From NCBI RefSeq assembly GCF_037038585.1, contig NC_092541.1, positions 5,707,445 to 5,771,444 of the forward strand: a stretch of DNA of 64,000 nucleotides, given 5' to 3'. The position numbers were made by a program, and so were the translations under genes. The notes beneath the pieces were generated by a model. It was given only the letters and a program-made list of their open reading frames with translations, was not told the DNA's origin and searched no databases. This DNA is from Patagioenas fasciata. Taxonomy: Eukaryota > Chordata > Aves > Columbiformes > Columbidae. Positions 1-64,000 of the stretch are shown here, piece by piece; the first letter of the stretch is position 1; each line of letters starts with the position of its first letter.

Positions 1-185
1 ATCTTCTGGTACCGTCTCCTCCCGGACCGAGGTCCCGAACTCCTCGTGTGGGGTATTAAAGGCTCCAAAGCGCTGTCGGATCCGCCGGGTTGGCTGTCGG
101 TGGCGGCAGACCGCCGGTCCAGCGCCCTGTGGCTCTCCCGGCCCCGGCGCGGGGACGCGGCGGTGTATTACTGCGCCGTGGGAGA
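1..185 (+). CDS. TCR alpha/delta V gene, subgroup A, copy 1 (5' cut by window edge)
   Basis: This is the 3' part of a V exon. It starts in framework 2 (WYRLLP) and runs through CDR2 and framework 3 to YYCAVGD, then stops at a recombination signal at 186. The leader and framework 1 lie outside the window. The product would be the variable domain of a T-cell receptor alpha or delta chain. Framework 3 ends in GDAAVYYC, the conserved second-cysteine region of Ig V domains. The protein is identical to the matching part of the copy at 48708-48999, and only silent changes were noticed. It is the first member of the duplicated block 1-14540. Alpha versus delta use cannot be told from sequence. Confidence 0.9.
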
Positions 186-224
186 CACGGGGAGAGGAGC
201 CGGGGCTGCGGCCGGGCACGAACC
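186..224 (+). promoter_or_regulatory. 23-bp-spacer recombination signal, A copy 1
   Basis: Heptamer CACGGGG at 186-192, 23-base spacer 193-215, nonamer GCACGAACC at 216-224. The CAC that RAG cleavage needs is present. The last four heptamer bases depart from CACAGTG, and the nonamer matches 6 of 9 consensus bases. Confidence 0.85.
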
Positions 225-2368
225 GCCGCGGGCGGGGCCGGGCGGGTGAGGCGGGGGCAGCGGGGACAGGGGGACAGCCCTGGTCGACCCGCCAGGGGGC
301 GCTGCCGCTCCGCCCGCAGTAGCCGCCTGGCCCCCTCCGCCCCCAGGGCGGCTCCCCCGCCCGAGCACCGGCAACGATATTGACATTACACCAACCGCAC
401 CCCCACATGGATTCAGACCACTGAGTCTACGTGCTGATTCTTCCTTCTGAGCCCTCCGAATGACAGGAGGAGTTGCCCATGGACAGTTGTCCCGTGCTGG
501 GGGCTGGTTGTGCTCCCCAGGAGGGGCAAAAAGCTGTAGTTGATCTCTCCACAGAGCCTCCTCATGGCAAAGATGGGCAGTTCCAAGCACACCTGATGGA
601 AAAGACTCTCCTCTTCATTCCCTCCTGTCAGCTATTTACACACATTGCCAGTGTCCCCCCTGAGCCGTCTCTTCCCCAGGCTGTACACTGTCAGCCCTCT
701 CAGCATATTCTCATAGGAAAGATGCTCCAATTCTCACACCATTTTGCTGGTCTCACTCCAGTATCTTTCTTGTATTGAGGAGTGCAAAAGTGGAGTGAGC
801 ACTCAACAGTACTGAGTAGAGAGGATCAGGTCCTTTGTCCTGCTGGTTGACTCTCTTCCTACTGCAGCCCAGGCTGCTGTTGGCCTTCCTTGCCATGAGG
901 GTCCGTTGCCACAGCAGACACAGGAACACCCCAGAACTGCTGAAACTGAGCGGGACACAGCAGCGAGTATTCAGGAGCAGTATCCCAGCTGCTTGTCCAG
1001 CTCTTCCTCTTCCCTCAGCATGCACCAGAGACCACTGTTGGAGAAGAAGACTCTTGGTATGAGACATGACTTCTGTGTTTTTACCTTGTTGAAAAAACAA
1101 CCAACCAAACAAACAAACAAAAAAACCCCAACAGGTTGGAATCTATGGGCACAGATTATCTCATTCCACACATTTCAAGTGACCCAGGTGCTTCTTTACA
1201 CCTACCATACATCTGAAAATGAGTGCTCCTTTGGCCAAGCTTTGCCTTTTCTTTCATGCTTGTAGTTTCTCAATCATTCTGAGAAGTGAATGCCACGACA
1301 GCATTGCTACAGGTCTTGCAGGGAGACATTTCAGAGACTGAACTCAACATGGAGTTTCTCCCCAGAGCCGACTCAAGAAACTCAATTTCCTCTGGGCACA
1401 GGAGACTTTCAGCTTCTTAAAGAACTTTCTTGCCTGAAGAACTCCAGCAAAGGCCACTGTAAGGACAAGTGGAAGGTGAGAGCCGCTGGTTCACTAAGGC
1501 TGGCAGATCAAATCCCTTTTCTTTTCAAAGGGAAGAGCAAAGAAAAGGGAAAGTGATAAACAATGCACACAATGACACCGATCTCTCAGTAGGTGATAAG
1601 GGAGACAAGGATGAAGACCAGAGCTCTGCAGCCTCTAATTGATGGGCCATTGGGAAACTGCAGGTGTAGCTTTGTAGTGGGACAGGCTGAGCTTTGTAAG
1701 TGACAGGAAGTGACAAGAAGAACAGGAGGATTTGCATGTTTGAGCAGAGTCCTGTGGGACTAGACAACACTTCTTAAGGCATGTGGAGGGGAAGAGTCAA
1801 AGGTGGGGGGAAAGAGGAGACTGGGGAGGATCAAGAGGAGACAATAGAGAGGGGGAAGAATAAAAGGTGGTACCTGAACCTAAGCAGGAGTTGGTCAGTG
1901 CAATTGTTGGGGTGGCCCCTGTGCCTGACCACTACAGTCCCCCTGCCTTCTTATTAAATCCTTTCTTAAGAAGGAAAGGGAAAGGTTATGTCAGCCTGGA
2001 GACCCTCCACATCTCTAGGAACCTCATTTGAGAACATGACGAGGTCCAGCACATCATCTATGAGGACAGGAGGTGAGGTCTCCACTGCAAGCAGACCAGG
2101 AACAGCCACTTCCCATCATGGCATTCCCTCAGTTACCAGGACATCTCATTTTGGAATTGTTGAGAATGCTGAGTGAGCCACACATGTTCTTGGTGGAGGA
2201 GGGAGAAACCCTGAATAAGACTTTCAGGCACAGGAAGTATAGATCTCTTCTCTTCCCCACTTCTACATTTGCTCCCCCCCAGAGTGGTTTCCGGCAGCTC
2301 TGGTATCTTGGGGCTGGGAGGTGCTTTTCTGACTCTCTCACTCAAGAAACAAGCAGGCTGTTCTCGGC
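225..2368. other. Intergenic, A copy 1 to B copy 1
   Basis: No gene is supported here. The first 150 bases are GC-rich continuation of the A flank. A weak CR1-like stretch (about 650-910) and a CAAA-rich microsatellite (1104-1128) follow. Bases 1620-1780 are repeated at about 34900-35060 and 50450-50600, upstream of other B genes. They may carry B promoter elements, but no specific site was identified. Confidence 0.6.
650..910 (-). mobile_element. Degenerate CR1-like fragment
   Basis: On the - strand it resembles the CR1 3' coding region, with phrases matching the 'CCTCATGGCAAGGAAGGCC...' part of old CR1 copies. It is strongly decayed. Equivalents lie at about 33925-34245 and 49465-49720, so it was present before the modules duplicated. 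Confidence 0.45.
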
Positions 2369-3734
2369 ATGCACCTTGGGTACCTGGTCCTCACTGCCTT
2401 CCTGGGGCAACTGCTGGGTAGGTCTTTGCTTTCTGTAAATTCATCCTCCTTCTTCTTCTCCCAAGGAAACTCCCACCAACCTCATCAGGATCATGCAGAG
2501 AACTACTCATGATTAAAGGGAAAACACAAGGTAATGTCACCTCACATTTGTGTTTTTGCACCAGTTCTCTAAAGATTCTCTTAGTGTTAGGAGGAGAGGA
2601 GAGGAGAGGAGAGGAGAGGAGAGGAGAGGAGAGGAGAGGAGAGGAGAGGAGAGGAGAGGAGAGGAGAGGAGAGGAGAGGAGAGGAGAGGAGAGGAGAGGA
2701 GAGGAGAGGAGAGGAGAGGAGAGGAGAGGAGAGGAGAGGAGAGGAGAGGAGAGGAGAGGAGAGGAGGAGATGCCTCTGATCACTTCTTTCCCTGTTCTCT
2801 CCTATTTGATCAATCTCTCTCTGCCTCTCTTTTCTGACCTACATGCTGTCACCTTAGGAGATCTCAGCTCTCTCTGCACTCCCACATTTCTCCCTTCACA
2901 ATCCCAATTATTAACAGCAGATCCTGTCAAAGCAGTTACATGGACTTTGAAGCTCTCATCCCATTGACATTACCAAGGTGTCCCATTCTACCTCTGGGCT
3001 GGTACATGTCTGTCATGACCTCCAGTTTCCTCCTAGTTATTGACACAGGCTGGATTCCTTCTTTCCAAAATTTAGCTCAGCTGTGTGTTGGCTCAGGAGC
3101 CCAAGAAATGACAGTGATTCGGAATCAGGATGAATCTTTTTTGTCTCTGCAGGCCTCTCAATCCGCTGGGGGGGTGCTGGTCCTAGCACATGAAGGTCAG
3201 GCGTGACAGGTTGTTCCCTGGTCCTCTGGGCAGTAGGAACAGGACCAGGGACACAGCACAGCTCTCCTCAGAGTCCAGCTCTAATCGCCTGCCCAGAACT
3301 ATTCTGCACCTTGTTGTCCCCACACATCAGGATTCTCCTGCAGGCCAAGGGACAAGGAGACTTCTCTAGCAGAGTTTGGCATTCATTCCTAGTTTGCTTT
3401 CCAGAGCCCTTCCCTGCAGAGTTCCTGAGCTTCACTTTCTTCCAGGTACCATGGGGCAGGTCACTGTCACCCAGCAAGAAGGACAAGTCACAGTGAAGCA
3501 GAGAGACACCTTCCAAACAACCTGCACATACCAGACACCCAACTTTCGAGGCTTGCTCTGGTACCAGCAGAGGAAAGGCCAAGCTCCCCAGCTGGTCTCA
3601 TATCACGCAGGATCTGGCCACAAGCGCAGCGACCGTTTCAGCACAACTCTGAACACCACGGGGAAATACAGCGTCCTGCAGGTGGAGGAAGTCGAGGTGT
3701 CTGACAGTGCCTTGTACCTCTGTGCTGTGCAAGA
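2369..3734 (+). CDS. TCR alpha/delta V gene, subgroup B, copy 1
   Basis: Two exons. The leader exon 2369-2417 ([16 protein letters not shown] plus one base) ends at donor GTAGGT. The V exon 3446-3734 follows TTCTTCCAG, and the split codon joins in phase to give GTMGQVTV. The V domain has the first cysteine in TTCTY, tryptophan in LLWYQQ, framework 3 with an NTT glycosylation site, and second cysteine in [14 protein letters not shown]1 is TPNFRG and CDR2 is around HAGSGHKRS. The hydrophobic leader targets the chain to the ER and the T-cell surface. The intron carries a long GGAGA tract (2590-2770). All exon and signal features are intact, so the gene looks functional. Its duplicate is at 51176-52698. 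Confidence 0.92.
2590..2770 (+). repeat. (GGAGA)n microsatellite in B copy 1 intron
   Basis: About 36 near-perfect GGAGA units lie between the leader and V exon. The pure purine/pyrimidine mirror tract can form triplex DNA. The same intron in the B copies at 51176 and 54497 carries tracts of different length and composition. Confidence 0.97.
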
Positions 3735-3773
3735 CACCCTGGTGCAGGGAGCTTCCTTGGCTGTGCAAGAACC
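3735..3773 (+). promoter_or_regulatory. 23-bp-spacer recombination signal, B copy 1
   Basis: Heptamer CACCCTG at 3735-3741, 23-base spacer 3742-3764, nonamer GCAAGAACC at 3765-3773 (7 of 9 consensus bases). The reading frame stays open through the signal to a TAA at about 3895. Confidence 0.87.
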
Positions 3774-4407
3774 CCGGGGAGGGAGGGGATGTGTCTGTGC
3801 AAGGCTGAGCTTGTGGGATGGGGCCCTGAGCTGTGCCCTGGCGGTGCTGCTTCCTCTGTGCCCCCAGGGATCTGCAGGGGAAGATCCTGTGATGTAACAT
3901 TTTCTGTCCATTCCAGACACCATTTATGCACACATCGTGTTCAATATTCTCATACTAAGCCAAGGTAGTTTCTTCTTCTTGCCAGTGCATGGAAAGCTCC
4001 ACTGCTTGGCAAAGTGCAAGCAGCACACACAAGAGCCATTGCATTGACATGCTAGTGATTTGTTCATCTTGATCACAAGTAGTACACCTGTCCTCCCTGG
4101 CAGTAATAGGGTTTGTCTTGTCTTGAGGGGACAGCTTATTACTACTTCCGTTTTGCTGTTTCCCTCTTATACTTCAGTCATGGCAGGTGTTTTTAAGAGG
4201 TGCTGGACCTTTTCTTTCTCCTATTGATATGCCAATAAACCGCCCCACATGCAGACCAAGAGAAGTGCACTTGAGGCAGCTCCCAGCATGGGGCATCCAT
4301 GGGCCCTCTATCCCCTGTTCTCCCTGGGGAGGCAGCAAAAGGCTCAGCCTCATTTCAGCAGGTGTCTCGTCTCTGCCACTGGAACAGGAGGTTGAGGGAA
4401 GGTTTCC
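3774..4407. other. Downstream flank of B copy 1
   Basis: No gene seen. This is conserved module sequence found again after the other B genes (17540-18140, 39051-39500, 52738-53371, 56017-56460). Confidence 0.6.
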
Positions 4408-4919
4408 TCCCCTTCTACTCTGCCCTGGTGAGGCCGCATCTGGAGTAATGTGTCCAGTTCTGGGTTCCCCAGTTTAAGAAAGACAAGGAGTTGCCAGAGA
4501 GAGTCCAGCAGAGGGACACAAAGTTGATGAGGGGTCCAGAGCTCTCTCTGTTCATTCTAGAGAAAAGAAGACTGAGTTTCTTATTTGTGCTTATAAATAT
4601 CTCAGGATGGTGTCAAGAGGATTGTCCAGACTCTTTTCAGTCGTGCTCAATGATAGGATGAGGGGCAGTGGGTACAGACTGAAACACAGGAGGTTCTATC
4701 TAAACATAAGGAGAAACTTCTTTACTTTGAGGGTGCCAGAGCCCTGGAATGGGCTGCCCAGAGAGGTTGTGAAGTCTCCGTCTCTGGAGACATTCAGAAC
4801 CTGTCTGAATGCAATCCTGTGTGATCTGTTCTAGGTGAAACTGCTTTAGTGGGAGGGTTGTACTAGATAATCTCCAGACATTCCTTCCAAACATATCCAT
4901 TCTGTGATTCTGCGAATCT
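4408..4919 (+). mobile_element. CR1 LINE 3' fragment
   Basis: The + strand encodes the C-terminal end of CR1 ORF2 ([20 protein letters not shown], then ETFRTCLNAILCDLF and a stop). The CR1 tail follows, ending in the 8-bp repeat region ATTCTGTG/ATTCTGCG at about 4900-4919. It is 5' truncated and abuts a second CR1. Its duplicate is at 53372-53887, with a shortened one at 56505-56755. Confidence 0.88.
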
Positions 4920-6245
4920 GTGTGCCTGGCAAAATTATGGAGAAGGTTATTCTGGGACTTATTGAAGAACATCTGAATGACAATGCAGTCACTGGTCAAA
5001 GCCAGCATGGGTTCCTGGGCGGAAAGTCCTGCTTGATCAACTCAATTTGTTTCTACAAGGTTTCCCACTTAGTTGACCAAGGGAAGCCTGTTAATGTGGT
5101 CTTTTGGGGTTACAGTAAAGCCTTTGATATTGTCTCTCACAGTATCCTCCTGTACAAGGTGTCCAACACACAGATGGAGAAGCACACAATGCATTGGGTG
5201 AGCAATTGCATGACGGGCTGGTCTCAAAAGGTTCTAGTAAATGTGGTTCTGCTGGGCTGGTGACCAGTCACTAGTGGAGTTCTGCAGGGATGCATCTTAG
5301 GGCCAGTCCTCTTTCATGTCTTTATAAATGACTTCGACTCAGGACTTGAGGGATTGCTTACTGAGTTTGTTGATGACACAAAATCAGGGGGAGCTGTTGA
5401 CACTCTTGAGGGCAGAGAGGCCCTGCAGAGTGATACAGACAAATTTGAGAACTGGACAATCACCAAGCACATGAAGTTCCACAAGAGCAAGTGCTGGATT
5501 TTGTACCCGGGACACAGCAACCCTGGCTGTACAGACAGACTGAAGGACAAGATGCTGGAGAGCAGCTCTGCAGAGATGGATCTGGAGGTTCTGGTTGACA
5601 GCAGGTTGAACATGAGACAACAGTGTCCCTGGCAGCCAAAGGGGACCCATGTCCTGGGTACATCCAGCACAGCATGGCCAGCTGGGCAGGGAGCGGATTG
5701 TCCCGCTCTGCTCTGCGCTGGGGCAGCCTCACCTGAGGCACTGGGGACAGTTCTGGGCACTACAGGATAAAAAGGTTTTAAAGCTACTGGAAAGTGTCCA
5801 GAAGAGAGCTACAAAGTTGGTGAAGGGTTTGGGGGTGAAGCCATATGAGAAACAGCTAAAGTCACTTGGTTTTGTTGGCCTGGAGAAGAGGAGACTGAAG
5901 GGAGAATTCATGGCGGTCTACAGCTTCCTTGTAAGGGGAAGACGAGGGACAGACGCTGTGTTCTTCTCTCTGGCAACCAATGGCAGGATCCATGGGAATG
6001 GCTGGAATATGGGTCAGGGGAGGTTTAGGTTGCATATTAGAAAAAGATTCTTCCCCCAGACAGTAGTGGAGCACTGGAACAGGCTCCCCAGGGAGGAACT
6101 CACAATACCAAGCCTGACAGTATTCGAGAAGAGACTAGATAATGGCCTCAGACAAAAGGTGTGAACTGTGGGGTTGCATACACAGGGACAGGAGTTTGGC
6201 TTGATGATCATTGTGGGTTCCTTCCAGCTCAGGATATACTATGAA
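4920..6245 (+). mobile_element. CR1 LINE fragment with broken reverse transcriptase
   Basis: Pieces of CR1 ORF2 run in order on the + strand: KIMEKVILGLIEEHL, SQHGFLGGKSCL, GYSKAFDIVSHSILL, a decayed FVDDTKSGG catalytic region, and the C-terminal [16 protein letters not shown] ending at a stop at 6164. Frameshifts and stops separate the pieces. The end (AGGATATACTATGA) resembles a CR1 3' terminus. The coding end differs from that of the neighbouring CR1, so it is another, probably older, subfamily. The copy at 56750-57990 lacks about 85 bases. Confidence 0.88.
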
Positions 6246-7609
6246 AGCAGAATCTCTGGGAAAAATGCCCTTAGTTCAAACCCTAAACCACACATGGATC
6301 GTTTTCCCTTTTATCTACTTTTCCAAGATCATTTTTGTTGGGCAGGCAAAGCAGGGATCACACCAAGAGCCAGTAGCAGCCCTCTGGCAGCTCTTTGGCC
6401 AAAGGCCTCACTCGCACGTCCGGAGAAATGCCATCCCTCCCTCTTCTACAAGGACAAATAGAGATGGTATCATCATTGCAAAGGACCTGAGGTACCTGGT
6501 GCTCGTTGCAAGGTTGAGTGCAGTAGGGTCAGGAAGTGGAACTCTCCTGCCATTGATGATAGTTATTAAAGTATGACTAAGGCAAAGACATTTGACATTC
6601 AGTTGAAATGTGCTTATGAAGCTTTTGGCATTCAGTCATTCTGAGATCTTCTTCATTTGGCATAATTCCCTGGTGGAGGACAGTGCTACGGGGTTTTCTG
6701 TCCTTACACTTCTACACCTTCGGGAGGACAACTGGTGGTTCATGCAGGAAACAGGATATGAGTCCGTAGTGACTGCCAAGAGACATTTCCACTGATCAAA
6801 AGGGATGAGATTTAAATGTAAAAGAAACCTTTTCCCCCAGAATGGCAGCCAATTCCTGAGCACAAACTCAGCCCATCTGCAGCTCTCTTGGCATGTGCAA
6901 CCAGTACTGCCATATCTGCTGATCTTCACATTCTCCTGTATGCTGTTGTCAGAGCAATTCGCTCTCCCTCAGAAATGCACCCTTTCAGTGTCCCCGTTTC
7001 TGTGCTGGATGTCCTCACCTCCCGCATGCTCAACTACCATTTCATCCTTGACACATTCAACAGTGGGTGTCAATTTTCCCTGCTACTCCCGCCCATGGCC
7101 ACGGGCTATAGCCTTGACGTTGGGTGATGGAGGGGACAGGAAGGTGCAGTAGCAGCTATGGGCCATCCCAAGGGCTGTTCCAAGCTTTACTGCTCTTGCC
7201 ATTCTGCAAAGCAAATCATCTTTCAGAGCCCCACACCCACTCCCTGCCACCCCAGCACAGCTCTGGCCACAGCAAGGGAACATCCTTACTCAAGAGCTCA
7301 GGGGGCTGCTGACCCCTCAGGGCCTCTTGCCTTACTGAGCATTTGTGGGCAGAGGCACAGCAAGGCAGGACCTGGTGGTCACTGACAGCAGAGTAGCCAG
7401 GGATGATTTCCTCAAGTCCAAGGGAAGGTGCCCAAAAGAGGAGCCACTGCAGACTGTCCCAACCTCTCATTCCTCTATCAATGGAGAAAGACCTTCTTGT
7501 GCCTTCACCCCCTTTCCACCCCAGAGTAACGCCCTTCTCCTTTGGCAGTCTGGGGAGAGTTCACAGAGGGAAGGACCACATGGAGAACAAGCTTCAGTGC
7601 AGCAGAACT
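6246..7609. other. Intergenic, CR1 to keratin 3' end
   Basis: No convincing gene. Bases 6320-6560 and 7400-7600 recur, diverged, at 43390-43910 in front of another keratin, so this is part of the amplified module. The copy at 57991-59282 has lost about 70 bases around 58660 relative to 6905-7010. Confidence 0.6.
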
Positions 7610-7615
7610 TTAATG
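7610..7615 (-). terminator. Polyadenylation signal of keratin copy 1
   Basis: ATTAAA on the - strand, followed by GTTCTGCTGCA. It is conserved at the same place behind keratin copies 3 and 4. It implies a 3' UTR of about 310 bases. Confidence 0.65.
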
Positions 7616-7929
7616 CATAAAAGAGGGAGACAATGTCACTGCAAGTAGAGGACAGCAGTGCAGGAATCCCCAGAGGAATCCACAAGTCTGCAGTCCATGG
7701 TCATTAAGAAGTTTGTGCATGATGTTCATCTGCCCACCCCATAGAGTGAGAGAAGACAGCTGATTCCCAACAGGTTGGACCTGGGGGAACCCTGTTGCCA
7801 AGGAGAACTGAAGCAATAAAAGAAAAAGGTAGAAAAGGTAAAGCCATTCAGCTATACTGAAAACACTTTGCCCAGCACCATGTTTTGAGTTCCTCAAGGT
7901 GTCTCCCTGGGCCCTTCCCAGATTCTTTA

Positions 7930-8232
7930 TCAGCGCAGGTACCTTCTGCCAAAGTAGCGGCCGGAAATGCCAGAGAGGTCACAGCAGCCAGAGTTGATGG
8001 GCACTCCATCACAGCTGAGGATTCTGCCAACAGCAGCAGAGGTGGAGGAGCCCACAACGGTGTTCTGTGGGAAGGAGCTGAGGATGGGGCCAGGCAGCGT
8101 CACCACCACAGGGGAGGGCTCGATGACAACTCTGGAGTCCTGGCACTGCCTGACACAGGGCTCATTGCAGCTGTTGGCCAGTGGGGTCGGACCACAGGGC
8201 TGGCAGGGCAGGCACTGGTTGTAGCAGGACAT
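7930..8232 (-). CDS. Feather beta-keratin, copy 1
   Basis: A complete 100-residue feather-type corneous beta-protein. It has a cysteine-rich head ([33 protein letters not shown]) and a central beta-sheet filament core around residues 34-65 ([20 protein letters not shown]). A Gly/Ser-rich tail ends in [10 protein letters not shown] and a TGA stop. Such proteins polymerise into the hard filaments of feathers. The gene shows the family's usual layout. Non-coding exon 1 (about 8616-8650) ends at donor GTGAGT, the intron is 8254-8615, and coding exon 2 starts at 8253 after CTCTCACAG. A TATA box lies at 8676-8682. It is antisense to the V genes around it. The tail lacks the cysteines common at the C-terminus of feather keratins. 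Confidence 0.95.
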
Positions 8233-8675
8233 TTCTTGAGGGTGGATATGAAGCTGTGAGAGAGGGCAGGGAGGAAGCAGAGCATAGAAGTGTGTGAGAA
8301 GCAGCCTGGTTACCCTGTCAGAAAGAAGCCAAGGCCACTACTGAGTGGGGAGCTGGAAGCTGTGCCAGGAGCCACACAGTCTTCATGACACTAAAAGGAG
8401 CAGCCTGGCACAGAGAGGCTCTCTCTCTCCTACTGAATACACCAAAAGCCACCTCTGCCACCTCCCAGCCTGTTCCTAAGCAGAACATTTTCCCACTTCC
8501 CTCTCCCTAGACAAGAAGAGGTGTATCACAGGAGAGATCATAGACAGTATCAGCTGAGATGTCCATTGATGAGAGAAATGCCAAATTGGAAGAGGAGAAG
8601 AGGTTTCAGACTCACCTGGTTCCTGGGAAGAAGGAGCCAAGAGAAGTGGATGAGAGAGCCAGACCCTGGGCTGCC

Positions 8676-8682
8676 TTTTATA
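8676..8682 (-). promoter_or_regulatory. TATA box, keratin copy 1
   Basis: TATAAAA on the - strand, about 30 bases upstream of the inferred start of exon 1. The core GGTATAAAAGGCAG is shared with the other three keratins. Confidence 0.8.
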
Positions 8683-9037
8683 CCTGCTCTTCATTGCTGC
8701 AGGACCAGAGAGAACCTTGGAAGAGGTAACAGTTTTCTGACAAACTCGTCTTGAATGCAAATCATCACAGCTAATGAGATGGGCTGTGCTTTAGTTTCCT
8801 GTACTGCTGCCTTTTCATTTTCAGGTTTGTTCCATACCCATTCCTCAGTGAAGGCTTCTTATGATCCCTGGGATGAAAGGCCCAAGCATTTCTCAGGCAG
8901 TAATGAAGCAATGCAGGCAGAAGATTCAACTGAAGAGTTTGATGGGTCTAGAGCAGACAAATGAGGTCATCCTGGGACACTCCCTTGGGTCTCTTTGTAC
9001 TGCCATTCTCAGGAAAATTTAATCCTCCTCAGCTGGA
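8683..9037. other. Upstream flank of keratin copy 1
   Basis: No gene. Keratin distal promoter region, shared with 28115-28480, 45007-45330 and 60357-60711. Confidence 0.6.
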
Positions 9038-12780: not shown

Positions 12781-12796
12781 TTCTTGGAGATGTTTC

Positions 12797-12862
12797 AGGG
12801 GAGGGAGAGGGAGAGGAAAAGGAGGAGACGGAGAAGGAGGAGGAAGAGGAGGAGCCGGAGGA
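12797..12862 (+). repeat. Purine-rich imperfect repeat in A copy 2 5' region
   Basis: A G/A tract of GGAGGA, GAAGGA and similar units ends about 70 bases before the leader ATG. The copy 6 equivalent (62150-62240) has one extra 27-base unit. Confidence 0.8.
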
Positions 12863-52698: not shown

Positions 52699-52737
52699 CA
52701 CCCTGGTGCAGGGAGCTTCCTTGGCTGTGCAAGAACC
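52699..52737 (+). promoter_or_regulatory. 23-bp-spacer recombination signal, B copy 4
   Basis: CACCCTG at 52699-52705, 23-base spacer, GCAAGAACC at 52729-52737. Confidence 0.87.
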
Positions 52738-53371: not shown

Positions 53372-54496
53372 TCCCCTTCTACTCTGCCCTGGTGAGGCCG
53401 CATCTGGAGTAATGTGTCCAGTTCTGGGTTCCCCAGTTTAAGAAAGACAAGGAGTTGCCAGAGAGAGTCCAGCAGAGGGACACAAAGTTGATGAGGGGTC
53501 CAGAGCTCTCTCTGTTCATTCTAGAGAGAAGACGACTGAGTTTCTTATTTGTGCTTATAAATATCTCAGGATGGTGTCAAGAGGATTGTCCAGACTCTTT
53601 TCAGTCGTGCTCAATGATAGGATGAGGGGCAGTGGGTACAGACTGAAACACAGGAGGTTCTATCTAAACATAAGGAGAAACTTCTTTACTTTGAGGGTGC
53701 CAGAGCCCTGGAATGGGCTGCCCAGAGAGGTTGTGAAGTCTCCGTCTCTGGAGACATTCAGAACCTGTCTGGATGCAATCCTGTGTGATCTGTTCTAGGT
53801 GAAACTGCTTTAGTGGGAGGGTTGTACTAGATAATCTCCAGACATTCCTTGCAAACATATCCATTCTGTGATTCTGCGAATCTGTGTGCCTGGCAAAATT
53901 ATGGAGAAGGTTATTCTGGGACTTATTGAAGAACATCTGAATGACAATGCAGTCACTGGTCACAGCCAACATGGGTTCCTGGGTGGAAAGTCCTGCTTGA
54001 CCGACTTAATTTGTTTCTACAAGGTTTCCCACTTAGTTGACCAAGGGAAGCCTGTTAATGTGGTCTTTTGGGGTTACAGTAAAGCCTTTGATACTGTCTC
54101 TCACAGTATCCTCCTGTACAAGGTGTCCAACACACAGATGGAGAAGCACACAATGCATTGGGTGAGCAATTGGATGATGGGCCGGGCTCAAAAGGTTCTA
54201 GTAAATGTGGTTCTGCTGGGCTGGTGACCAGTCACTAGTGGAGTTCTGCAGGGATCCATCTTAGGGCCAGTCCTCTTTCATGTCTTTATAAATGACTTCA
54301 ACTCAGGACTTGAGGGACTGCGTAGCAAGTTTCCTGATGACTCAAAATCAGGGGGAGCTTTCGACACTCTTGAGGGCAGAGAGGCCCTGCAGAGTGATCT
54401 GGACAAATTGGAGAACTGGACAGTCACCAACCACATGAAGTTCCACAAGAGCAAGTGCTGGATTTTGTACCTGGGACACAGCAACCCTGGCTGTAC
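53372..54496 (+). mobile_element. Two abutting CR1 fragments, second cut by duplication junction
   Basis: Counterpart of 4408-5534. The first CR1 ends at about 53887. The second stops abruptly at about 54496, in the middle of its ORF2, where B-gene intron sequence begins. Confidence 0.88.
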
Positions 54497-55688
54497 AGGT
54501 CTTTGCTTTCTATAAATTCATCCTTCTTCTTCTTCTCCCAAGGAAACTCCCACCAACCTTATCAGGATCATGCAGAGAACTACTCATGATTAAAGGGAAA
54601 ACACAAGGTAATGCCACCTCACATTTGTGTTTTTGCACCAGTTCTCTAAAGATTCTCTTAGTGTTAGAAGGAGAGGAGAGGAGAGGAGAGGAGAGGAGAG
54701 GAGAGGAGAGGAGAGGAGAGGAGAGGAGAGGAGAGGAGAGGAGAGGAGAGGAGAGGAGAGGAGAGGAGAGGAGAGGAGAGGAGAGGAGAGGAGAGGAGAG
54801 GAGAGGAGAGGAGAGGAGAGGAAAGGAAAGGAAAGGAAAGGAAAGGAAAGGAAAGGAAAGGAAAGGAAAGGAAAGGAAAGGAAAGGAAAGGAAAGGAAAG
54901 GAAAGGAAAGGAAAGGAAAGGAAAGGAAAGGAAAGGAAAGGAAAGGAAAGGAAAGGAAAGGAAAGGAAAGGAAAGGAAAGGAAAGGAAAGGAAAGGAAAG
55001 GATGCTTCTGATCTCTTCTTTCCCTGTTCTCTCCTGTTTGATCAATCTCTCTCTGCCTCTCTCTTCTGACCTACATGCTGTCACCATAGGAGCTCTCAGC
55101 TCTCTCTGCACTCCCACATTTCTCCCTTCACAATCCCAATCATTAACAGCAGATCCTGTCAAAGCAGTTACACGGACTTTAAAGCTCTCATCCCATTGAC
55201 ATTACCAAGGTGTCCCATTCTACCTCTGGGCTGGTACATGTCTGTCATGACCTCCAGTTTCCTCCTAGTTATTGACACAGACAGGACTCCCTCTTTCGAA
55301 TATTCAGCTCAGTTGTATGTTGACTCAGGAGCCCAATAAATGACAGTGATTGGGAATCAGGATGAATCTTTTTGTCATAACTCTGCAGGCTTCTCAATCT
55401 GCTGGGGGTGTGCTGGTCCTAGCACATGAAGGTCAGGCATGACAGGCTGTTCCCTGGTCCTCTGGGCAGTGGGAGCAGGGAGGAGGACCAGGGACACAGC
55501 ACAGCTCTCCTCAGAGTCCAGCTCTAATCTCCTGCCCAGAACTACTCTGCACCTTGTTGTCCCCACACATTAGGATTCTCCTGCGGGGCAAGGGACAAGG
55601 AGACTTCTCCAGCAGAGTTTGGCATTCATTCCTGGTTTGCTTCCCAGAGCCCTTCCCTGCAGAGTTCCTGACCTTCACTTTCTTCCAG
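54497..55688 (+). other. Duplicated B intron without its leader exon
   Basis: From 54497 (GGTCTTTGCTTTC) the sequence equals B copy 4 intron starting 3 bases after its exon/intron boundary (51228). The leader exon is missing. The next 1.2 kb is ordinary B intron with purine tracts, up to the acceptor at 55688. Confidence 0.88.
54669..55002 (+). repeat. (GGAGA)n joined to (GGAAA)n in B copy 5 upstream intron
   Basis: About 30 GGAGA units (54669-54821) switch directly to about 36 GGAAA units (54822-55002). The A-like insert seen at 51497 is absent here. Confidence 0.97.
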
Positions 55689-55977
55689 GCACCATGGGGC
55701 AGGTCACCGTCACCCAGCAAGAAGGACAAGTCACAGTGAAGCAGAGAGACACCTTCCAAACTACCTGCACATACCAGACACCCACCTTTCAAGGCTTGCT
55801 CTGGTACCAGCAGAGGAAAGGCCAAGCTCCCCAGCTGGTCTCATATCATGCAGGATCTGGACTCAAGCGCAGCGACCGTTTCAGCACAACTCTGAACACC
55901 ACGGGGAAATACAGCGTCCTGCAGGTGGAGGAAGTCGAGGTGTCTGACAGTGCCTTGTACCTCTGTGCTGTGCAAGA
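55689..55977 (+). CDS. TCR alpha/delta V gene, subgroup B, copy 5 (no leader exon of its own)
   Basis: V exon with intact acceptor (TTCTTCCAG), GTMGQVTV start, first cysteine, [17 protein letters not shown] and recombination signal. CDR1 is TPTFQG and CDR2 is HAGSGLKRS. No leader exon or B-type promoter lies between it and CR1 sequence at 54496. It arose by tandem duplication with a breakpoint in the leader intron. Either it is a pseudogene, or the leader of copy 4 at 51176 splices over the copy 4 V exon, which has no donor, to this acceptor. The V exon shows no decay. Confidence 0.85.
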
Positions 55978-56016
55978 CACCCTGGTGCAGGGAGCTTCCT
56001 TGGCTGTGCAAGAACC
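55978..56016 (+). promoter_or_regulatory. 23-bp-spacer recombination signal, B copy 5
   Basis: CACCCTG at 55978-55984, 23-base spacer, GCAAGAACC at 56008-56016. A TGA at 56033 ends the frame that stays open longer in the other B copies. Confidence 0.87.
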
Positions 56017-56504
56017 CCAGGGAGGGAAGGGATGAGTCTGTGCAAGACTGAGCTTGTGGGGTGGGGCCCTGAGCTGTGCCCTGGCAGTGCTGCTTCCCCT
56101 GTGCCCCCAGGGATCTGCAGGGGAAGATCCTGTGATGTAACATTTTCTGTCCATTCCAGACACCATTTATGCACACATGGTCTTCAATATTCTCATACTA
56201 AGTCAATGTAGTTTCTTTTTCTTGCCAATGCATGGAAAGCTCCGCTGTTTGGCAAAGTGCAAGCAGCACACACAAGAGCCATTGCATTGACATGCTAGTG
56301 ATTTGTTCATCTTGACCACAAGTAATAACCACAGGCACACCCGTCCTCCCTGGCAGTAATAGGGTTTGTCTTGTCTTGAGGGGACACCTTATTACTATTT
56401 CCATTCTGCTGTTTCCCTCTTGAACTTCAGTCATCGCAGGTGTTTTTAAGATGTGCTGGACCGTTTCTTTCTCCTATTGATATGCGAATATATCGATATG
56501 CAAT
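56017..56504. other. Downstream flank of B copy 5
   Basis: Shared B flank. About 450 bases, including the start of the first CR1, are deleted at about 56490 relative to 53190-53635. No gene. Confidence 0.6.
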
Positions 56505-57990
56505 GGGTACAGACTGAAACACAGGGGGTTCTATCTAAACATAAGGAGAAACTTCTTAATTTTGAGGTGCCAGAGCCCTGGAAATGGCTGCCCAGAGAGG
56601 TTGTGAAGTCTCCGCCTCTGGAGACATTCAGAACCTGTCTGGATGCAATCCTGTGTGATCTGTTCTAGGTGAAACTCCTTTAGTGGGAGGGTTGTACTAG
56701 ATAATCTCCAGACATTCCTTCCAAACGTAACCATTTTGTGATTCTGCGAATCTATGTGCCCGGCAAAAATATGAAGAAGGTTATTCTGGGACTTATTGAA
56801 GAACATCTGAATGACAATGCAGTCACTGGTCACAGCCAACATGGGTTCCTGGGTGGAAAGTCCTGCTTGACCAACTTAATTTGTTTCTACAAGGTTTCCC
56901 ACTTAGTTGACCAAGGGAAGCCTGTTAATGTGGTCTTTTGGGGTTACAGTAAAGCCTTTGATACTGTCTCTCACAGTATCCTCCTGTACAAGGTGTCCAA
57001 CACACAGATGGAGAAGCACACAATGCAGTGGGTGAGCAATTGGATGATGGGCCGGGCTCAAAAGGTTCTAGTAAATGCGGTTCTGCTGGGCTGGTGACCA
57101 GTCACTAGTGGAGTTCTGCAGGGACCCATCTTAGGGCCAGTCCTCTTTCATGTCTTTATAAATGACTTCAACTCAGGACTTGAGGGACTGCGTAGCAAGT
57201 TTGCTGATGACTCAAAATCAGGGCGAGCTGTTGACACTCTTGAGGGCAGAGAGGCCCTGCAGAGTGACCTGGACAAATTGGAGAACTGGACAGTCACCAA
57301 CCACAAGATGCTGGAGAGCAGCTCTGCAGAGATGGATCTGGAGGTTCTGGTCGACAGCAGGTTGAACATGAGAAAACAGTGTCCCTGGCAGCCCAAGGGG
57401 ACCCATGTCCTGGGTACATCCAGCACAGCATGGCCAGCTGGGCAGGGAGTGGATTGTCCCGCTCTGCTCTGCGCTGGGGCAGCCTCACCTGAGGCACTGG
57501 GGACAGTTCTGGGCACTACAGGATAAAAAGGTTTTAAAGCTACTGGAAAGTGTCCAGAAGAGAGCTACAAAGTTGGTGAAGGTTTTGGGGGTGAAGCCAT
57601 ATGAGAAACAGCTAAAGTCACTTGGTTTGTTTGGCCTGGAGAAGAGGAGACTGAAGGGAGAATTCATGGCGGTCTACAGCTTCCTTGTAAGGGGAAGACG
57701 AGGGACAGACGCTGTGTTCTTCTCTCTGGCAACCAATGGCAGGATCCATGGGAATGGCTGGAAGATGGGTCAGGGGAGGTTTCGGTTGCATATTAGAAAA
57801 AGATTCTTCCCCCAGACAGTAGTGGAGCACTGGAACAGGCTCCCCAGGGAGGAACTCACAGTACCAAGCCTGACAGTATTCGAGAAGAGACTAAATAATG
57901 GCCTCAGACAAAAGGTGTGAACTGTGGGGTTGCATACACAGGGACAGGAGTTTGGCTTGATGATCACTGTGGGTTCCTTCCAGCTCAGGA
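56505..57990 (+). mobile_element. Two CR1 fragments, duplicate of 4670-6245
   Basis: The first is the shortened CR1 tail (to about 56755). The second runs from GLIEEHL, SQHGFLGGKSCL and GYSKAFDTVSH to the C-terminal [16 protein letters not shown]. It has an 85-base internal deletion at about 57303. Confidence 0.88.
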
Positions 57991-59282
57991 TATACTATGA
58001 AAGCAGAATCTCTGGGAAAAATGCCCTTAGTTCAAACCCTAAAACACACATGGATCCTTTTCCTTTTATCTACTTTTCCAAGATCATTTTTGTTGGGCAG
58101 GCAAAGCAGGGATCACACCAAGAGCCAGTAGCAGCCCTCTGGCAGCGCTTTGGCCAAAGGCCTCACTCGCACGTCCGGAGAAATGCCATCCCTCCCTCTT
58201 CTACAAGGACAAATACAGATGGTATCATCATTGCAAAGGACCTGAGGTACCTGGTGCTCGTTGCAAGGTTGAGTGCAGTAGGGTCAGGAAGTGGAACTCT
58301 CCTGCCATTGATGATAGTTATTAAAGTATGACTAAGGCAAAGACATTTGACATTCAGTTGAAATGTGCTTATGAAGCTTTTGGCATTCAGTCATTCTGAG
58401 ATCTTCTTCATTTGGCATAATTCCCTGGTGGAGGACAGTGCTACGGGGTTTTCTGTCCTTACACTTCTACACCTTCGGGAGGACAACTGGTGGTTCATGC
58501 AGGAAACAGGATATGAGTCCGTAGTGACTGCCAAGAGACATTTCCACTGATCAAAAGGGATGAGATTTAAATGTAAAAGAAACCCTTTCCCCCAGATTGG
58601 CAGCCAATTCCTGAGCACAAACTCAGCCCATCTGCAGCTCTCTTGGCATCTGCAAGCAGTACTGTCCCCGCTTCTGTGCTGAATGTCCTCACCTCCCGCA
58701 TGCTTAATTACCATTTCATCCTTGACACATTCAACAGTGGGTGTCAATTTTCCCCACTACTCCCGCCCATGACCACGGTCCATAACCCTGACATTGGGTG
58801 ATGGAGGGGAGAGGAAGGTGCAGTAGCAGCTATGGGCCATCCCAAGGGCTGTTCCGAGCTTTACTGCTCTTGCCATTCTGCAAAGCAAATCATCTTCCAG
58901 AGCCCCACACCCACTCCCTGCCACCCCAGCACAGCTCTGGCCACAGCAAGGGAACATCCTTACTCAAGAGCTCAGGGGGCTGCTGACCCCTCAGGGCCTC
59001 TTGCCTTACTGGGCATTCGTGGGCAGAGGCACAGCAAGGCAAGACCTGGTGGTCACTGACAGCAGAGTAGCCAGGGACGATTTCCTCAGGTCCAAGGGAA
59101 GGTGCCCAAAAGAGGAGCCACTGCAGACTGTCCCAACCTCTCATTCCTCTATCAATGGAGAAAGACCTTCTTGTGCTTTCACCCCCTTTCCACCCCAGAG
59201 TAACGCCCTTCTCCTTTGGCAGTCTGGGGAGAGTTCACAGAGGGAAGGACCACATGGAGGCCAGGCTTGAATGCAGCAGAAC
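57991..59282. other. Intergenic, CR1 to keratin copy 4
   Basis: Near-identical to 6246-7609. No gene. Confidence 0.65.
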
Positions 59283-59288
59283 TTTAAT
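59283..59288 (-). terminator. Polyadenylation signal of keratin copy 4
   Basis: ATTAAA on the - strand followed by GTTCTGCTGCA. Confidence 0.65.
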
Positions 59289-59603
59289 GCATAAAAGAGA
59301 GAAACAAAGTCACTGCAAGTAGAGGACAGCAGTGCAGGAATCCCCAGAGGAATCCACAAGTCTGCAGTCCATGGTCATTAAGAAGTTTGTGCATGATGTT
59401 CATCTGCCCACCCCATAGAGTGAGAGAAGACAGCTGATCCCCAGCAGGCTGGACCTGGGGGAACCTTGTGGCCAAGGGGAACTGAAGCAATAAAAGAAAA
59501 AGGTAGGAAAGGTAAAGCCATTCAGCTATACTGAAAACACTTTGCCCAGCACCATGTTTTGAGTTCCTCAAGGTGTCTCCCTGGGCCCTTCCCAGATTCT
59601 TTA

Positions 59604-59906
59604 TCAGCGCAGGTACCTTCTGCCAAAGTAGCGGGCGGAAATGCCAGAGAGGTCACAGCAGCCAGAGTTGATGGGCACTCCATCACAGCTGAGGATTCTA
59701 CCAACAGCAGCAGAGGTGGAGGAGCCCACAACGGTGTTCTGTGGGAAGGAGCTGAGGATGGGGCCGGGCAGGGTCACCACCACAGGGGAGGGCTCGATGA
59801 CAACGGTGGAGTCCTGACACTGCCTGACACAGGGCTCATTGCAGCTGTTGGCCAGTGGGGTCGGACCACAGGGCTGGCAGGGCAGGCACTGGTTGTAGCA
59901 GGACAT
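59604..59906 (-). CDS. Feather beta-keratin, copy 4
   Basis: 100 residues, the duplicate of copy 1. Differences seen are Thr for Arg at residue 34 ([10 protein letters not shown]) and Ala for Gly near the tail ([10 protein letters not shown]). Exon 2 begins at 59927, intron 59928-60289, donor GTGAGT, exon 1 about 60290-60325, TATA box 60350-60356. The reading frame, splice sites and poly(A) signal are all kept after duplication, so both copies are probably active. Confidence 0.95.
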
Positions 59907-60349
59907 TTCTTGAGGGTGGATATGAAGCTGTGAGAGAGGGCAGGGAGGAAGCAGAGCATAGAAGTGTGTGAGAAGCAGCCTGGTTACCCTGTCAGAAAGA
60001 AGCCAAGGCCACTACTGAGTGGGGAGCTGGAAGCTGTGCCAGGAGCCACACAGTCTTCATGACACTAAAAGGAGCAGCCTGGTACAGGGAGGCTCTCTCT
60101 CTCCTAGTGACTACACCAAAAGCCACCTCTGCCACCTCCCAGCCTGTTCCTAAGCAGAACATTTTCCCACTTCCCTCTCCCTAGACAAGAAGAGGTGTAT
60201 CACAGGAGAGATCATAGACAGTATCAGCTGAGATGTCCATTGATGAGAGAAATGCCAAATTGGAAGAGGAGAAGAGGTTTCAGACTCACCTGGTTCCTGG
60301 GAAGAAGGAGCCAAGAGAAGTGGATGAGAGAGCAAGACCCTGGGCTGCC

Positions 60350-60356
60350 TTTTATA
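60350..60356 (-). promoter_or_regulatory. TATA box, keratin copy 4
   Basis: TATAAAA on the - strand in the GGTATAAAAGGCAG context. Confidence 0.8.
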
Positions 60357-61884
60357 CCTGCCCTTCATTGCTGCAGGACCAGAGAGAACCTTGGAAGAGG
60401 TAACAGTTTTCTGACAAACTCGTCTTGAATGCAAATCATCACAGCTAATGAGATGGGCTGTGCTTTAGTTTCCTGTACTGCTGCCTTTTCATTTTCAGGT
60501 TTGTTCCATGCCCATTCCTCAGTGAAGGCTTCTTATGATCCCTGGGATGAAAGGCCCAAGCATTTCTCAGGCAGTAATGAAGCAGTGCAGGCAGAAGATT
60601 CAACTGAAGAGTTTGATGGGTCTAGAGCAGACAAATGAGGTCAACCTGGGACACTCTCTTGGGTCTCTTTGAACTGCCATTCTCAGGAAAATTTAATCCT
60701 CCTCAGCTGGATGCCCATGGGTTCACATGCATGAGGACGTGCCAAGTCCTCGTCTTTCCTGACCTCCTCAGATCACCACTATGGTTCATTTTTTATACCA
60801 TTCCAGGTATGTGTGCTACGCTGTTCGGTTATGATCCCATCTTCCTTAACACTGCCCAGTCCCTGGGGTCCTTAGCAGAGTCCATGAACTTCTCCAGTAC
60901 CACAGTTCATGGTGTTGCTATGGGTGTTTTTTTCCTGTGCGTACTTGCAAGCTGCCAGGTTTGTGCAGATGCATGTGGGAGCACAGATTTATGTATAATT
61001 CCATGCTAATGAGCATAAACCTCTGTGTGTGTGTGTGTGTCCTTGGGTTTACACATCATGAGGGAACGCTCTGCTGGTGGCTGGGACATTCTCCACTACT
61101 CCCTTCATGAGCACCACAGAGCACCAGGGTCCCAGGGTCAGAAGGAGCTGAGTGTAGCTGAGTGGTGATGGCACCCGCCTGCTGGAGATCTGTCCAGGGA
61201 AGAGGCTCTGAAATGCAGTCCCCGTCTCCTGAGCCATCGTTTTCCTGCCACTCCAAAGTTCTTGTTCCTCTGCCACGTATTTCAAACCACAACAAGGATG
61301 GTTTCACTTGAGTTTGATTACTTGATTTAACTCAATGTAACAACATTGGGTGTGTCTCAACATGGCTGTCAGTCTGCCCCCCTGCATCTCCAGGCCAGGA
61401 CACAGCTGCTCTCCCCAGTGCTAGAGAGTTCAAAAGGATGAGATTTGCTTTATGGGAAAGAAGGAAAGCTGAGGAATCCTGCACAACCTTGTGCTGGCCA
61501 TCCCTGAGTGAATCTGCTTCCAGTGCATTCTTAAATGTGTCTGAGATGGAACAAAACCCACCACACTTGATTTGGGAATGAATCCCCAAAGCCAGCCACA
61601 GTCCCTCTTTCTAACCAGGTTTGTGTCTCAATGAGTGCATTTTCTAAGCCTCCGCTCATGAGTTTCCATCAGCTGGATCTCAGATGCGACTTGTGGAAGG
61701 TGCAATTGTGAACTTTCCCTATTCCATTTATTGACCTCAGGAAGATCAGTGACAGGGAGCTCTATTGGGAGAACTCAGCCAGGGCTGATTCCCCTCTCCA
61801 TGAAGCTGCTTCTGACCTGTGGCTCTAGTGATTCTGAGGGTGAACCCCGTTGCTGTCTCCTGGAGGATGTGGGGTTTTAAGAGA
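60357..61884. other. Intergenic with empty CR1 site, keratin copy 4 to A copy 6
   Basis: Matches 8683-9037 joined directly to 11353-12534. The uninterrupted join AGCTGGA/TGCCCATGGG at 60711/60712 is the pre-insertion state of the CR1 at 9038. No gene. Confidence 0.75.
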
Positions 61885-62130
61885 GAGCCAGAGGAGCATG
61901 AGACAGCAGTGCGCCCTTGCAGCAAAAAGGAGCAACTGCATCCTGTGCTGTATTAGTGAAAGCCATCAGGTGCAGGAATATGACCCTGTCTCATTTGAGA
62001 TCTCATCTGGAGTACTGCAGCCAGTTTGGGATTGCCTGATCCACGAAGGGAATGAGTTCATCAAATACAACCATGTATCTTCAGGGGCTGATGAACATGC
62101 ATATCAAAGAGAACGAGAGAACTGGGTCTG
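61885..62130 (+). mobile_element. CR1-derived fragment directly upstream of A copy 6
   Basis: Same as 12535-12780. Joined to the purine tract with the promoter-candidate block missing. Confidence 0.6.
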
Positions 62131-62149
62131 TTCTTCTTGGAGATGTTTC

Positions 62150-62240
62150 AGGGGAGGGAGAGGGAGAGGAAGAGGAGGAGACGGAGAAGGAGGAGGAAGA
62201 GGAGGAGACGGAGAAGGAGGAGGAAGAGGAGGAGCCGGAG
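62150..62240 (+). repeat. Purine-rich repeat in A copy 6 5' region
   Basis: Equivalent of 12797-12862 with one extra 27-base unit (ACGGAGAAGGAGGAGG...). Confidence 0.85.
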
Positions 62241-62310
62241 GAGGCGGCCGTGCCGAAGCAAGGAGCCGGGGCTGGCAGGGGCAGCGAGGCGCGGGCGGCG
62301 GAGCGGCGGG

Positions 62311-63363
62311 ATGCGGCGGTGCCGGGGCGCAGGGCTGGCGGGACTGGCCGCGGTGCTCCTGGGTGCGCGGGGCTGGCGGGGCTGGGTGGGGGCCGGGTCT
62401 CAGCCTGGAGCGTTCCCAGGGGACCTCAGCACCAGCTCTTCCCTCTCCTTCAACGTGTCCTTTCCCTCTCCCTGCCTCTCTGACATCTTTTATGATCCTT
62501 TCCCACCCCTCCACGTCCCCCCTTCCTGTTCTCCCTCTCTACTCTTCTCCTCTTCTCCATTGACCTACTCATCTTTGGACCCATCTCTCCATGCGTCTAC
62601 TATCTCTTCATGATCCCCTCTTCACACTCTCTGAAACGCCTTTCTCATCTGTTCCTCTGCTTTTTTTACATCTGTAGGCATAAGTTTGCTTTCCTGCACT
62701 GCACCATACATCATGCTATTCCTCTGTTCATTTAGCAATTATTCTTCTTCTGAATTCAGCCCTCCATGTTTCACTGCAATGCACCAAAATCTCCCATCGC
62801 CTTTCCCTGTCACCTTTCATTCATCTGTGCACATGACTGTCATTTGGTCTCTCAATGCATCAGTTTCAGATTCCATGCCAACCTTCCGTTCTTGCTCAAC
62901 AGACCCACACAAGTATAATCTGCCAACCATGTCAAGGAGTATATTTTCCCCAATTCTTCCAGTCTCGCTCTCTGTCACTGACACTGTTCCTAAAGATTTC
63001 TCAAGGGAAAGTGCCATCAGACCTGGGTGATCTTCGGTGATCTTTGGTCTTTCCTTCTCCTTTCTCTGCAGTGGCCGGAGCCAGAGCTCAGGTGCAACAG
63101 GACCTGTCAGCAGAGACCACCGAGGACACCGGCATCAGCATCAACTGCTCACACCCCAACATACAGTCAAACGAGGTCATTTACTGGTACCGTCAGCTCC
63201 CAGGCCGAGGCCCCGCGTTCCTCGCACTCGGTCACAAAGGCTCCAAAGCGCTGTCGGACCCACCGGGCCGGCTGTCGGTGGCGGCAGACCGCCGGTCCAG
63301 CGCCCTGTGGCTCTCCCGGCCCCGGCGCGGGGACGCGGCGGTGTATTACTGCGCCGTGGGAGA
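62311..63363 (+). CDS. TCR alpha/delta V gene, subgroup A, copy 6
   Basis: Leader exon 62311-62362 (MRRCRGAGLAGLAAVLL), donor GTGCGC. V exon 63072-63363 after CTCTGCAG, joining as VAGARAQVQQD. Duplicate of copy 2: CDR1 region IQSNEVI and CDR2 region GHKGSKA are the same, but it has GRLSV where copy 2 has GWLSV. Frame and V landmarks are intact. It shares copy 2's missing upstream block, so both may depend on CR1-derived upstream DNA. Confidence 0.91.
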
Positions 63364-63402
63364 CACGGGGAGAGGAGCCGGGGCTGCGGCCGGGCACGAA
63401 CC
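63364..63402 (+). promoter_or_regulatory. 23-bp-spacer recombination signal, A copy 6
   Basis: CACGGGG at 63364-63370, 23-base spacer, GCACGAACC at 63394-63402. Confidence 0.85.
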
Positions 63403-63507
63403 GCCGCGGGCGGGGCCGGGCGGGTGAGGCGGGGGGCGGGGGGACAGTCCCTTTCCGGGCCCGCCAGGGGGCGCTGCCGCTCTGCCCGCCGGCACCACCT
63501 CACCCCG

Positions 63508-63920
63508 CGAAATCACAGAATGGTCGGAGTTGGACGGAACCTCTGGAGATCACCTAGTCCAACCCATCTGCTAAAGCAGGTTCACCAGAGCAGATCACAC
63601 AGGAATGCATCCAGGTGGGTCTTGAATGTCTCTGGAGGAGGAGACTTCCCAGCCTCTCTGGGCAGCCTGTTCCAGGGCTCTGGCACCCTCAAAGTAAAGA
63701 AGTTTTTCTTTGTATTCAGATGGAGCCTCCTGTGCTTCAGCCTGTGCCCGTTGCCCCTCCTCCTATCGCTGGGCACCACTGAAAAGAGTCTGGTCTCATC
63801 CTCTTGACATCCACCCTTGAGATAGTTATAAACACTGATGAGATGCCCTCTCAGCCTTCTCCTCTCCAGGCTGAACACACACAGCTCCCTCAGTCTCTCT
63901 TCATAAGAAAGATGCTCTAG
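63508..63920 (-). mobile_element. CR1 3' fragment cut by deletion
   Basis: Counterpart of 14129-14540. It stops at CTCTAG, where sequence from behind B copy 2 begins. Confidence 0.88.
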
Positions 63921-64000
63921 CAATAGCCACAGGCACATCTGTCCCCTGCAGCAGTATCTGGTCTTGTCTTATCTCGAGATGGAGACAACTTAAAACTGAT
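63921..64000 (+). other. Sequence from the downstream flank of a B gene
   Basis: Matches 17851-17930 almost base for base. Its position next to CR1 shows that about 3.3 kb (14541-17850 in the other copy), with a whole B gene, has been removed here. Confidence 0.85.

Follow-up and report, generated by a model that had tools for sequence, protein, structure and literature searches.

The window, by which we mean the whole 64,000-bp stretch analysed here, covers positions 5,707,445–5,771,444 of contig NC_092541.1 in the Patagioenas fasciata (Columbidae) assembly GCF_037038585.1, contains no N base, and carries genes of two families, T cell receptor (TCR) variable (V) genes and feather keratins. 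When the V and keratin sequences of the window were matched back to it, 11 TCR V exons were located on the forward strand and four keratins on the reverse strand, the V genes forming a TRAV4-like group B (six genes, one cut at the window edge) and a TRAV1-like group A (five genes). With K for feather keratin, the forward-strand order is B (at 1 bp), A (3.5 kb), K (7.9), B (13.7), A (17.2), B (22.4), K (27.4), B (32.0), A (38.7), K (44.3), B (48.7), A (52.4), A (55.7), K (59.6) and B (63.1). All keratins are antisense to the V genes, with 15–19 kb from each to the next, and the next gene after each of them on the forward strand is a B gene (4/4). The distance from B exon to A exon is 3.2–6.5 kb, and in three of the five B-to-B intervals A is followed by a keratin. 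The array is irregular, as these intervals contain, in turn, A and K, A alone, K alone, A and K, and two A genes and K. An earlier note on this DNA had counted three intact keratins and one decaying keratin antisense to eleven V genes, and these counts and strands hold; its order A, B, keratin has to be replaced by B-A-K with irregular intervals.

The V-set domain (PF07686) scored above the curated Pfam cut-off in all five V genes tested, out of the 11. For one B gene the top solved-structure match was 6lir_A, “TCR alpha chain” (4.6e-35), with TRAV4-type chains among the matches, and for one A gene the top matches were TCR alpha chains at about 5e-18, many of them named TRAV1-2 or MAIT. Protein searches returned pigeons and doves first in both groups, with Caloenas at 88% leading for B (best 120 of 364 matches), and Alopecoenas at 92% and Caloenas at 89–90% for A (best 120 of 384). 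A candidate recombination signal sequence (RSS) with a 23-bp spacer was identified 3′ of the V exon in all 11 genes, composed of CACCCTG or CACGGGG, 23 bp, and GCAAGAACC or GCACGAACC. Split leader exons with a GT donor were predicted for all five testable B genes, where the donor is a weak GTGCG, and for four of the five A genes; the B leader exons encode MRRCRGAGLAGLAAVLL or close variants, and those of group A share one 16-letter protein sequence or a close variant of it.

No leader exon was found for the extra A gene at 55703. This gene lies in a tandem copy, 54497–56490, which is 93% like 51227–53201; the duplicated block starts at 51227, just past the end of the leader exon at 51224, and the gene is probably not usable alone. 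The expected leader position (54378–54496) holds unrelated sequence that is in part A-to-K spacer, and 53629–54438 matches 4665–5474, likewise A-to-K spacer. By eye, 54378–54496 resembles the reverse-transcriptase tail of a long interspersed nuclear element (LINE); a Pfam search with a frame in the neighbouring spacer (5616–6161) returned nothing. The A exons are alike, with 0.01–0.08 synonymous substitutions per site (dS), though their spacers are only 77–82% alike outside the recent pair. The B exons are more diverse, with dS of 0.03–0.31 and nonsynonymous substitutions per site (dN) of up to 0.16.

All four keratins contain the Pfam Keratin domain (PF02422; E-values 1.7e-34 to 1.7e-39), and the top named matches of the one keratin queried were feather keratin Cos2-3-like proteins of Columba livia and Caloenas nicobarica, at 98% (best 120 of 1403 matches). 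A feather keratin gene has a non-coding exon 1, a single intron, and its entire coding sequence in exon 2, and the window keratins fit this anatomy as predicted from their sequence: a TATAAAA box, a short exon 1 and a GT donor lie upstream of all four, and in three of the four an AG acceptor is predicted 21 bp before the ATG, together with an intron of 358–362 bp and a downstream ATTAAA signal. With this anatomy, the keratins were copied as DNA and did not arise by retro-copying. The keratin at 27396–27692 has lost its stop codon while its frame is still open, carries the changes C26Y, C30S and C83I, by which three cysteines are lost (three others are gained near the end), and has its splice acceptor region deleted with no clear acceptor left, a CTTC/AAGG microsatellite standing in place of its 3′ end. 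“Decaying” is a fair label for this copy, since the stop, three cysteines and a clear splice acceptor are gone.

Between the units at 8 and 44 kb the keratin coding sequence differs by a dS of 0.07 and a dN of 0.005. Five synonymous changes in about 72 sites stand against 89 changes in 369 sites of the intron region (24%; P = 0.00014). Gene conversion would be the simple reading of the near-identical keratin and A exons, with strong constraint as the alternative. This likeness of keratin coding sequences across units partly spoils the search for parallel branching in keratin and V gene trees that the earlier note had in mind.

Table. V genes, feather keratins and other features of the window. 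Exon, intron and promoter details are predicted; 23-RSS, candidate RSS with a 23-bp spacer.
Feature	Position (bp)	Strand	Remarks
V gene B (TRAV4-like), 3′ part of V exon, cut by window edge	1–180	+	followed by 23-RSS
V gene A (TRAV1-like), V exon	3460–3729	+	leader exon coding part 2369–2417; followed by 23-RSS
Feather keratin, intact 100-codon coding exon	7933–8232	-	362-bp intron, donor 8615; TATA box 8682
LINE-type insertion with reverse transcriptase domain, first unit only	9039–11353	-	
V gene B, V exon	13707–13979	+	leader exon coding part 12931–12982; followed by 23-RSS
V gene A, V exon	17226–17495	+	leader exon coding part 16305–16353; followed by 23-RSS
Keratin-less interval with A-side and keratin-to-B flanks	17496–22387		read as unit after keratin loss
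V gene B, V exon	22402–22674	+	leader exon coding part 21843–21894; followed by 23-RSS
Feather keratin, decaying	27396–27692	-	TATA box kept at 28114
V gene B, V exon	32000–32272	+	leader exon coding part 31380–31431; followed by 23-RSS
V gene A, V exon	38737–39006	+	leader exon coding part 37826–37874; followed by 23-RSS
Feather keratin, intact coding exon	44263–44562	-	358-bp intron, donor 44941; TATA box 45006
V gene B, V exon	48722–48994	+	leader exon coding part 48149–48200; followed by 23-RSS
V gene A, V exon	52424–52693	+	leader exon coding part 51176–51224; followed by 23-RSS
V gene A, V exon, tandem extra copy	55703–55972	+	without detected leader exon
Feather keratin, intact coding exon	59607–59906	-	362-bp intron, donor 60289; TATA box 60356
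V gene B, V exon	63086–63358	+	leader exon coding part 62311–62362; followed by 23-RSS

Spacers were compared without the gene bodies, coverage being expressed as percentage of the shorter spacer. All 15 pairs of spacers of one kind aligned, over 36–100% of the shorter spacer: K-to-B in six of six pairs (51–99% coverage, 70–97% identity), A-to-K in three of three (36–100%, 80–96%) and B-to-A in six of six (43–79%, 77–96%). Pairs of mixed kind gave no alignment in 37 of 40 cases, and the other three covered 2, 3 and 24%; the 24% pair includes the first K-to-B spacer, where the LINE-type insertion sits, and a piece of that insertion (9053–9828) matches 14132–14904, the site of the alignment in question. 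The likeness of the flanks is therefore real and specific to position in the unit. Moreover, 1–14540 and 48815–63920 are collinear through B, A, K and the next B, with 94–98% identity per aligned block, and are interrupted by an insertion in the first unit and the extra A gene in the second.

Traces of the unit were also found in the incomplete intervals. The keratin-less interval at 17.5–22.4 kb matches A-to-K spacers over 14–20% and K-to-B spacers over 9–49%, and is read as a former full unit with internal loss of its keratin, and the interval at 22.7–27.4 kb, which has no A gene, matches B-to-A spacers over only 4–6%. On the basis of these spacer traces, the ancestral unit was probably B-A-K; some members then disappeared and one A gene was added. 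That the amplified unit contained both V genes and the keratin is well supported by the alignments, since the spacers are kind-specific, the B-A-K-B copies are collinear, and the flanks of the lost keratin were kept.

The earlier note had described the flanks of each gene kind as resembling one another and had placed an immune V gene and a skin-appendage keratin in one multiplied unit; the kind-specific spacers bear out the former and, with the collinear copies, the latter, and the keratin flanks, which the note had allowed might prove unrelated between copies, align in every K-to-B and A-to-K pair. Its expectation that the copy number of one family would drag that of the other is not strictly borne out and has to be loosened: among the five B-to-B intervals one lost its keratin, another is without A, and a third gained an extra A gene alone. 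Because units lose members, V and keratin copy numbers are only loosely linked. It is highly improbable that two merely neighbouring families were amplified independently and became interleaved by chance. Both are known for tandem amplification, as the earlier note had stated, both lie on chicken chromosome 27 (PMC10972964, PMC2894828), and the extra A copy at 55.7 kb was amplified alone. Against this, the DNA between keratins and V genes was copied too, in all six K-to-B and all three A-to-K pairs, while 37 of the 40 mixed pairs show nothing.

Co-location in other birds was judged from the protein matches, the sign being a keratin row and a V row on contigs of exactly equal size among 110 keratin and 209 V rows; the counts that follow apply to the matches listed. 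Equal-sized keratin and V contigs occurred in 8 of 67 row pairs from the same source (59 from named species; keratin contigs below 1 Mb) and in none of 8084 row pairs from different species. They were found in six of the 11 named species having both kinds of row, namely Caloenas nicobarica (contig of 86191 bases), Pterocles burchelli (56082), Spizaetus tyrannus (20456), Glareola pratincola (21064), Pedionomus torquatus (21557) and Rostratula benghalensis (11016), which span pigeons, sandgrouse, hawks and shorebirds. As a control, A and B rows coincided on 12 same-species contigs and in two different-species cases; because of the latter two, chance equality of contig sizes exists but is rare. 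By this strong though indirect sign, keratin and V genes probably lie together on contigs of other birds as well, which argues against misassembly and against a trait of pigeons alone.

It is very unlikely that the arrangement is an assembly artefact, with keratin contigs misjoined into TRA or stacked haplotypes passing for duplicates. Both families are difficult to assemble; in the portions covered, PMC4202321 describes the chromosome 27 keratins as difficult to place, and PMC10972964 reports TCR sequences seemingly misdistributed between haplotypes in one chicken assembly. The window, on the other hand, has no N at all, the homology of its keratin-to-V spacers spans several ages (70–97% identity), the LINE-type insertion and differing losses set the units apart, and assemblies of six other species list keratin and V rows on equal-sized contigs.

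In a protein tree of 38 rows (the four window copies and 34 picked from the 120 listed matches), the three intact copies of the window cluster with further pigeon keratins (93/89). The tree is weakly resolved, with 7 of 34 inner branches starred and bootstrap not settled, and neither the four window copies nor the six keratins from V-bearing contigs form one group in it; it is therefore no demonstration of one origin. The Caloenas nicobarica keratin from the V-bearing contig of 86191 bases (P0096) joins a turaco sequence (100/80) and stands apart from the window copies. Given this placement in a poorly resolved tree, there may be more than one keratin subfamily among the TRAV genes. Keratin scans of viral and of bacterial and archaeal contigs confirmed no relative.

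The window is very probably part of the pigeon TCR alpha(/delta) TRAV region, where the multiplied homology unit includes a whole feather keratin (corneous beta-protein) gene. As judged from the alignments, this unit consists of V gene B, V gene A, an antisense keratin and the next B, with the DNA between the genes copied along, and individual units have lost or gained one member or another. Several points weigh against this assignment or narrow it. Beyond CAC, the RSS heptamers CACCCTG and CACGGGG differ from the consensus. No joining (J), diversity (D) or constant (C) gene turned up in the V searches of the window, no search having been aimed at them, and the assignment to TRA follows from V similarity, its sole support. 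Expression of both keratins and V genes is a prediction from sequence. The A-to-K spacers cover only 36–38% in comparison with the older unit (39–44 kb), and the A-K junction appears in full only for one recent pair of units. The co-location counts in turn derive from the best 120 of 1403 keratin, 364 B and 384 A matches, and no coincidence was seen among those listed in 5 of the 11 species (Bambusicola, Corythaixoides, Phaetusa, Tauraco and Turnix).

In the TRAV homology unit proposed here, units would multiply via unequal crossing-over between homologous spacers, and gene conversion or strong constraint would keep keratin and A exons near-identical while the spacers drift. The V genes would act in thymocytes through V(D)J joining, and the keratins would be driven in feather cells from their own TATA promoters, independently of the V genes. 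Because the keratins sit between V genes, V-to-J joining by deletion would excise those between the chosen V and J from that T cell, which should be costless to the cell. We regard it as unlikely that the pairing itself is selected, the antisense keratin and the V gene sharing regulation or the keratin serving as a spacer or boundary that aids V accessibility. All four keratins share their antisense orientation and their position ahead of a B gene, and the pairing is seemingly kept across several bird orders; orientation and position would, however, be preserved by tandem duplication alone, a keratin-less and an A-less unit persist, and one keratin is decaying.

The LINE-type insertion of the first unit contains an RVT_1 domain (1.7e-33), which lies in a 768-codon stop-to-stop frame (9130–11433), and stands about 0.8 kb upstream of the keratin ATG. 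The sister unit carries the empty site of this insertion at about 60712, and the insertion looks young. By its end sequence, it is presumably a CR1 element. In the A-less interval, a broken olfactory-receptor-like frame was identified on the forward strand at 23849–24355 (7tm_1, E-value 3.7e-9; 7tm_4, E-value 2e-6), possibly a relic of an old linkage of olfactory receptor (OR) genes with TRAV1. In several units an A V exon or a B leader exon is preceded by a long GAGGA/GGAGA/AAGGA purine microsatellite (2591–2766, 21581–21774, 51398–51728 and 54668–55002), and the lengths of these repeats vary strongly from unit to unit. Neither Rfam, at the gathering threshold, nor a tRNA scan returned any match in the window.

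A foreign gene family inside an antigen-receptor locus is already known, as with trypsinogens in TRB (PMC2685407, PMC2275272; these and the papers below are cited for the portions covered here), and the interspersion of four keratins among 11 V genes fits such an embedding. The trypsinogens of mammals, chicken and newt are likewise a non-receptor family that multiplied among TCR V genes and was long conserved there (PMC2685407, PMC2275272, PMC12698447). They sit at the ends of TRB or between gene clusters, whereas the window keratin alternates with V genes as a member of the unit, and in cattle the copy numbers of trypsinogen and V units changed separately, whereas the window keratin is part of the V unit. 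At the 5′ end of mammalian TRA/TRD, OR genes are interspersed with TRAV1, and the window likewise has foreign genes among TRAV, its group A being TRAV1-like; PMC2275272 (2008) describes one or two TRAV genes among OR loci, in contrast to the repeated shared unit of the window, and gives the OR-TRAV1 synteny as absent in chicken.

On chicken chromosome 27 the TRA/TRD locus, whose V genes lie on the reverse strand, covers about 970 kb, and its TRAV1/TRAV2 homology units are repeated two-family V pairs that multiplied with non-coding DNA, as in the window, with members about 2 kb apart compared with 3.2–6.5 kb from B to A exon here (PMC10972964). In chicken and zebra finch, the feather keratins of chromosome 27, where chicken also has TRA, are arrayed in tandem over a long stretch with loose spacing (PMC2894828, PMC4202321). 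PMC2894828 gives 61 feather keratins on this chromosome, PMC4202321 gives 47 keratin genes over 577.6 kb in chicken (63 including unplaced genes), and a table row of PMC2375447 locates the chicken feather keratin cluster at chr27:30000-930000. The chicken array thus has about one keratin per 12 kb (from PMC4202321), of the same order as the 15–19 kb of the window, and from this spacing an overlap of the chicken chromosome 27 keratin and TRA arrays is plausible. Within the open literature searched, PMC2375447 is the one paper to name both feather keratin and T cell receptor, in a single table and on different chromosomes, and PMC4264316 reports 81 beta-keratins in pigeon against a bird mean of about 34. 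The main text of PMC10972964 does not use the word “keratin”, nor do those of PMC2894828 and PMC4202321 use “T cell” or “T-cell”. No link between the two families appears in the covered portions of these three papers or of PMC2375447 and PMC4264316. Nor was a keratin-TRAV unit described in the open literature searched; subscription papers on chicken TRA/TRD, mostly outside that coverage, may hold one. In relation to the literature covered, what is new is the foreign gene within the V homology unit itself, with the feather keratin family as partner.

Feather keratins are usually counted as plumage adaptation and TRAV genes as immune adaptation, each separately. We suggest tentatively, and at somewhat less than even confidence, that in most birds the large feather keratin array of chromosome 27 and the TRAV array form a single array, both repertoires having grown through shared duplications, that selection on one family is partly responsible, as a side effect, for variation in its partner, and that each alpha-beta T cell deletes feather keratins on TRA rearrangement. 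If the duplication unit is shared, the copy number of either family may hitch-hike on that of its partner, and studies relating keratin number to lifestyle or domestication may have to be corrected. The shared unit also allows a clean test of the extent to which an unrelated neighbour is shaped when selection acts on a gene family. Through it, a skin-appendage family and an immune family have gained and lost genes in a partly common history.

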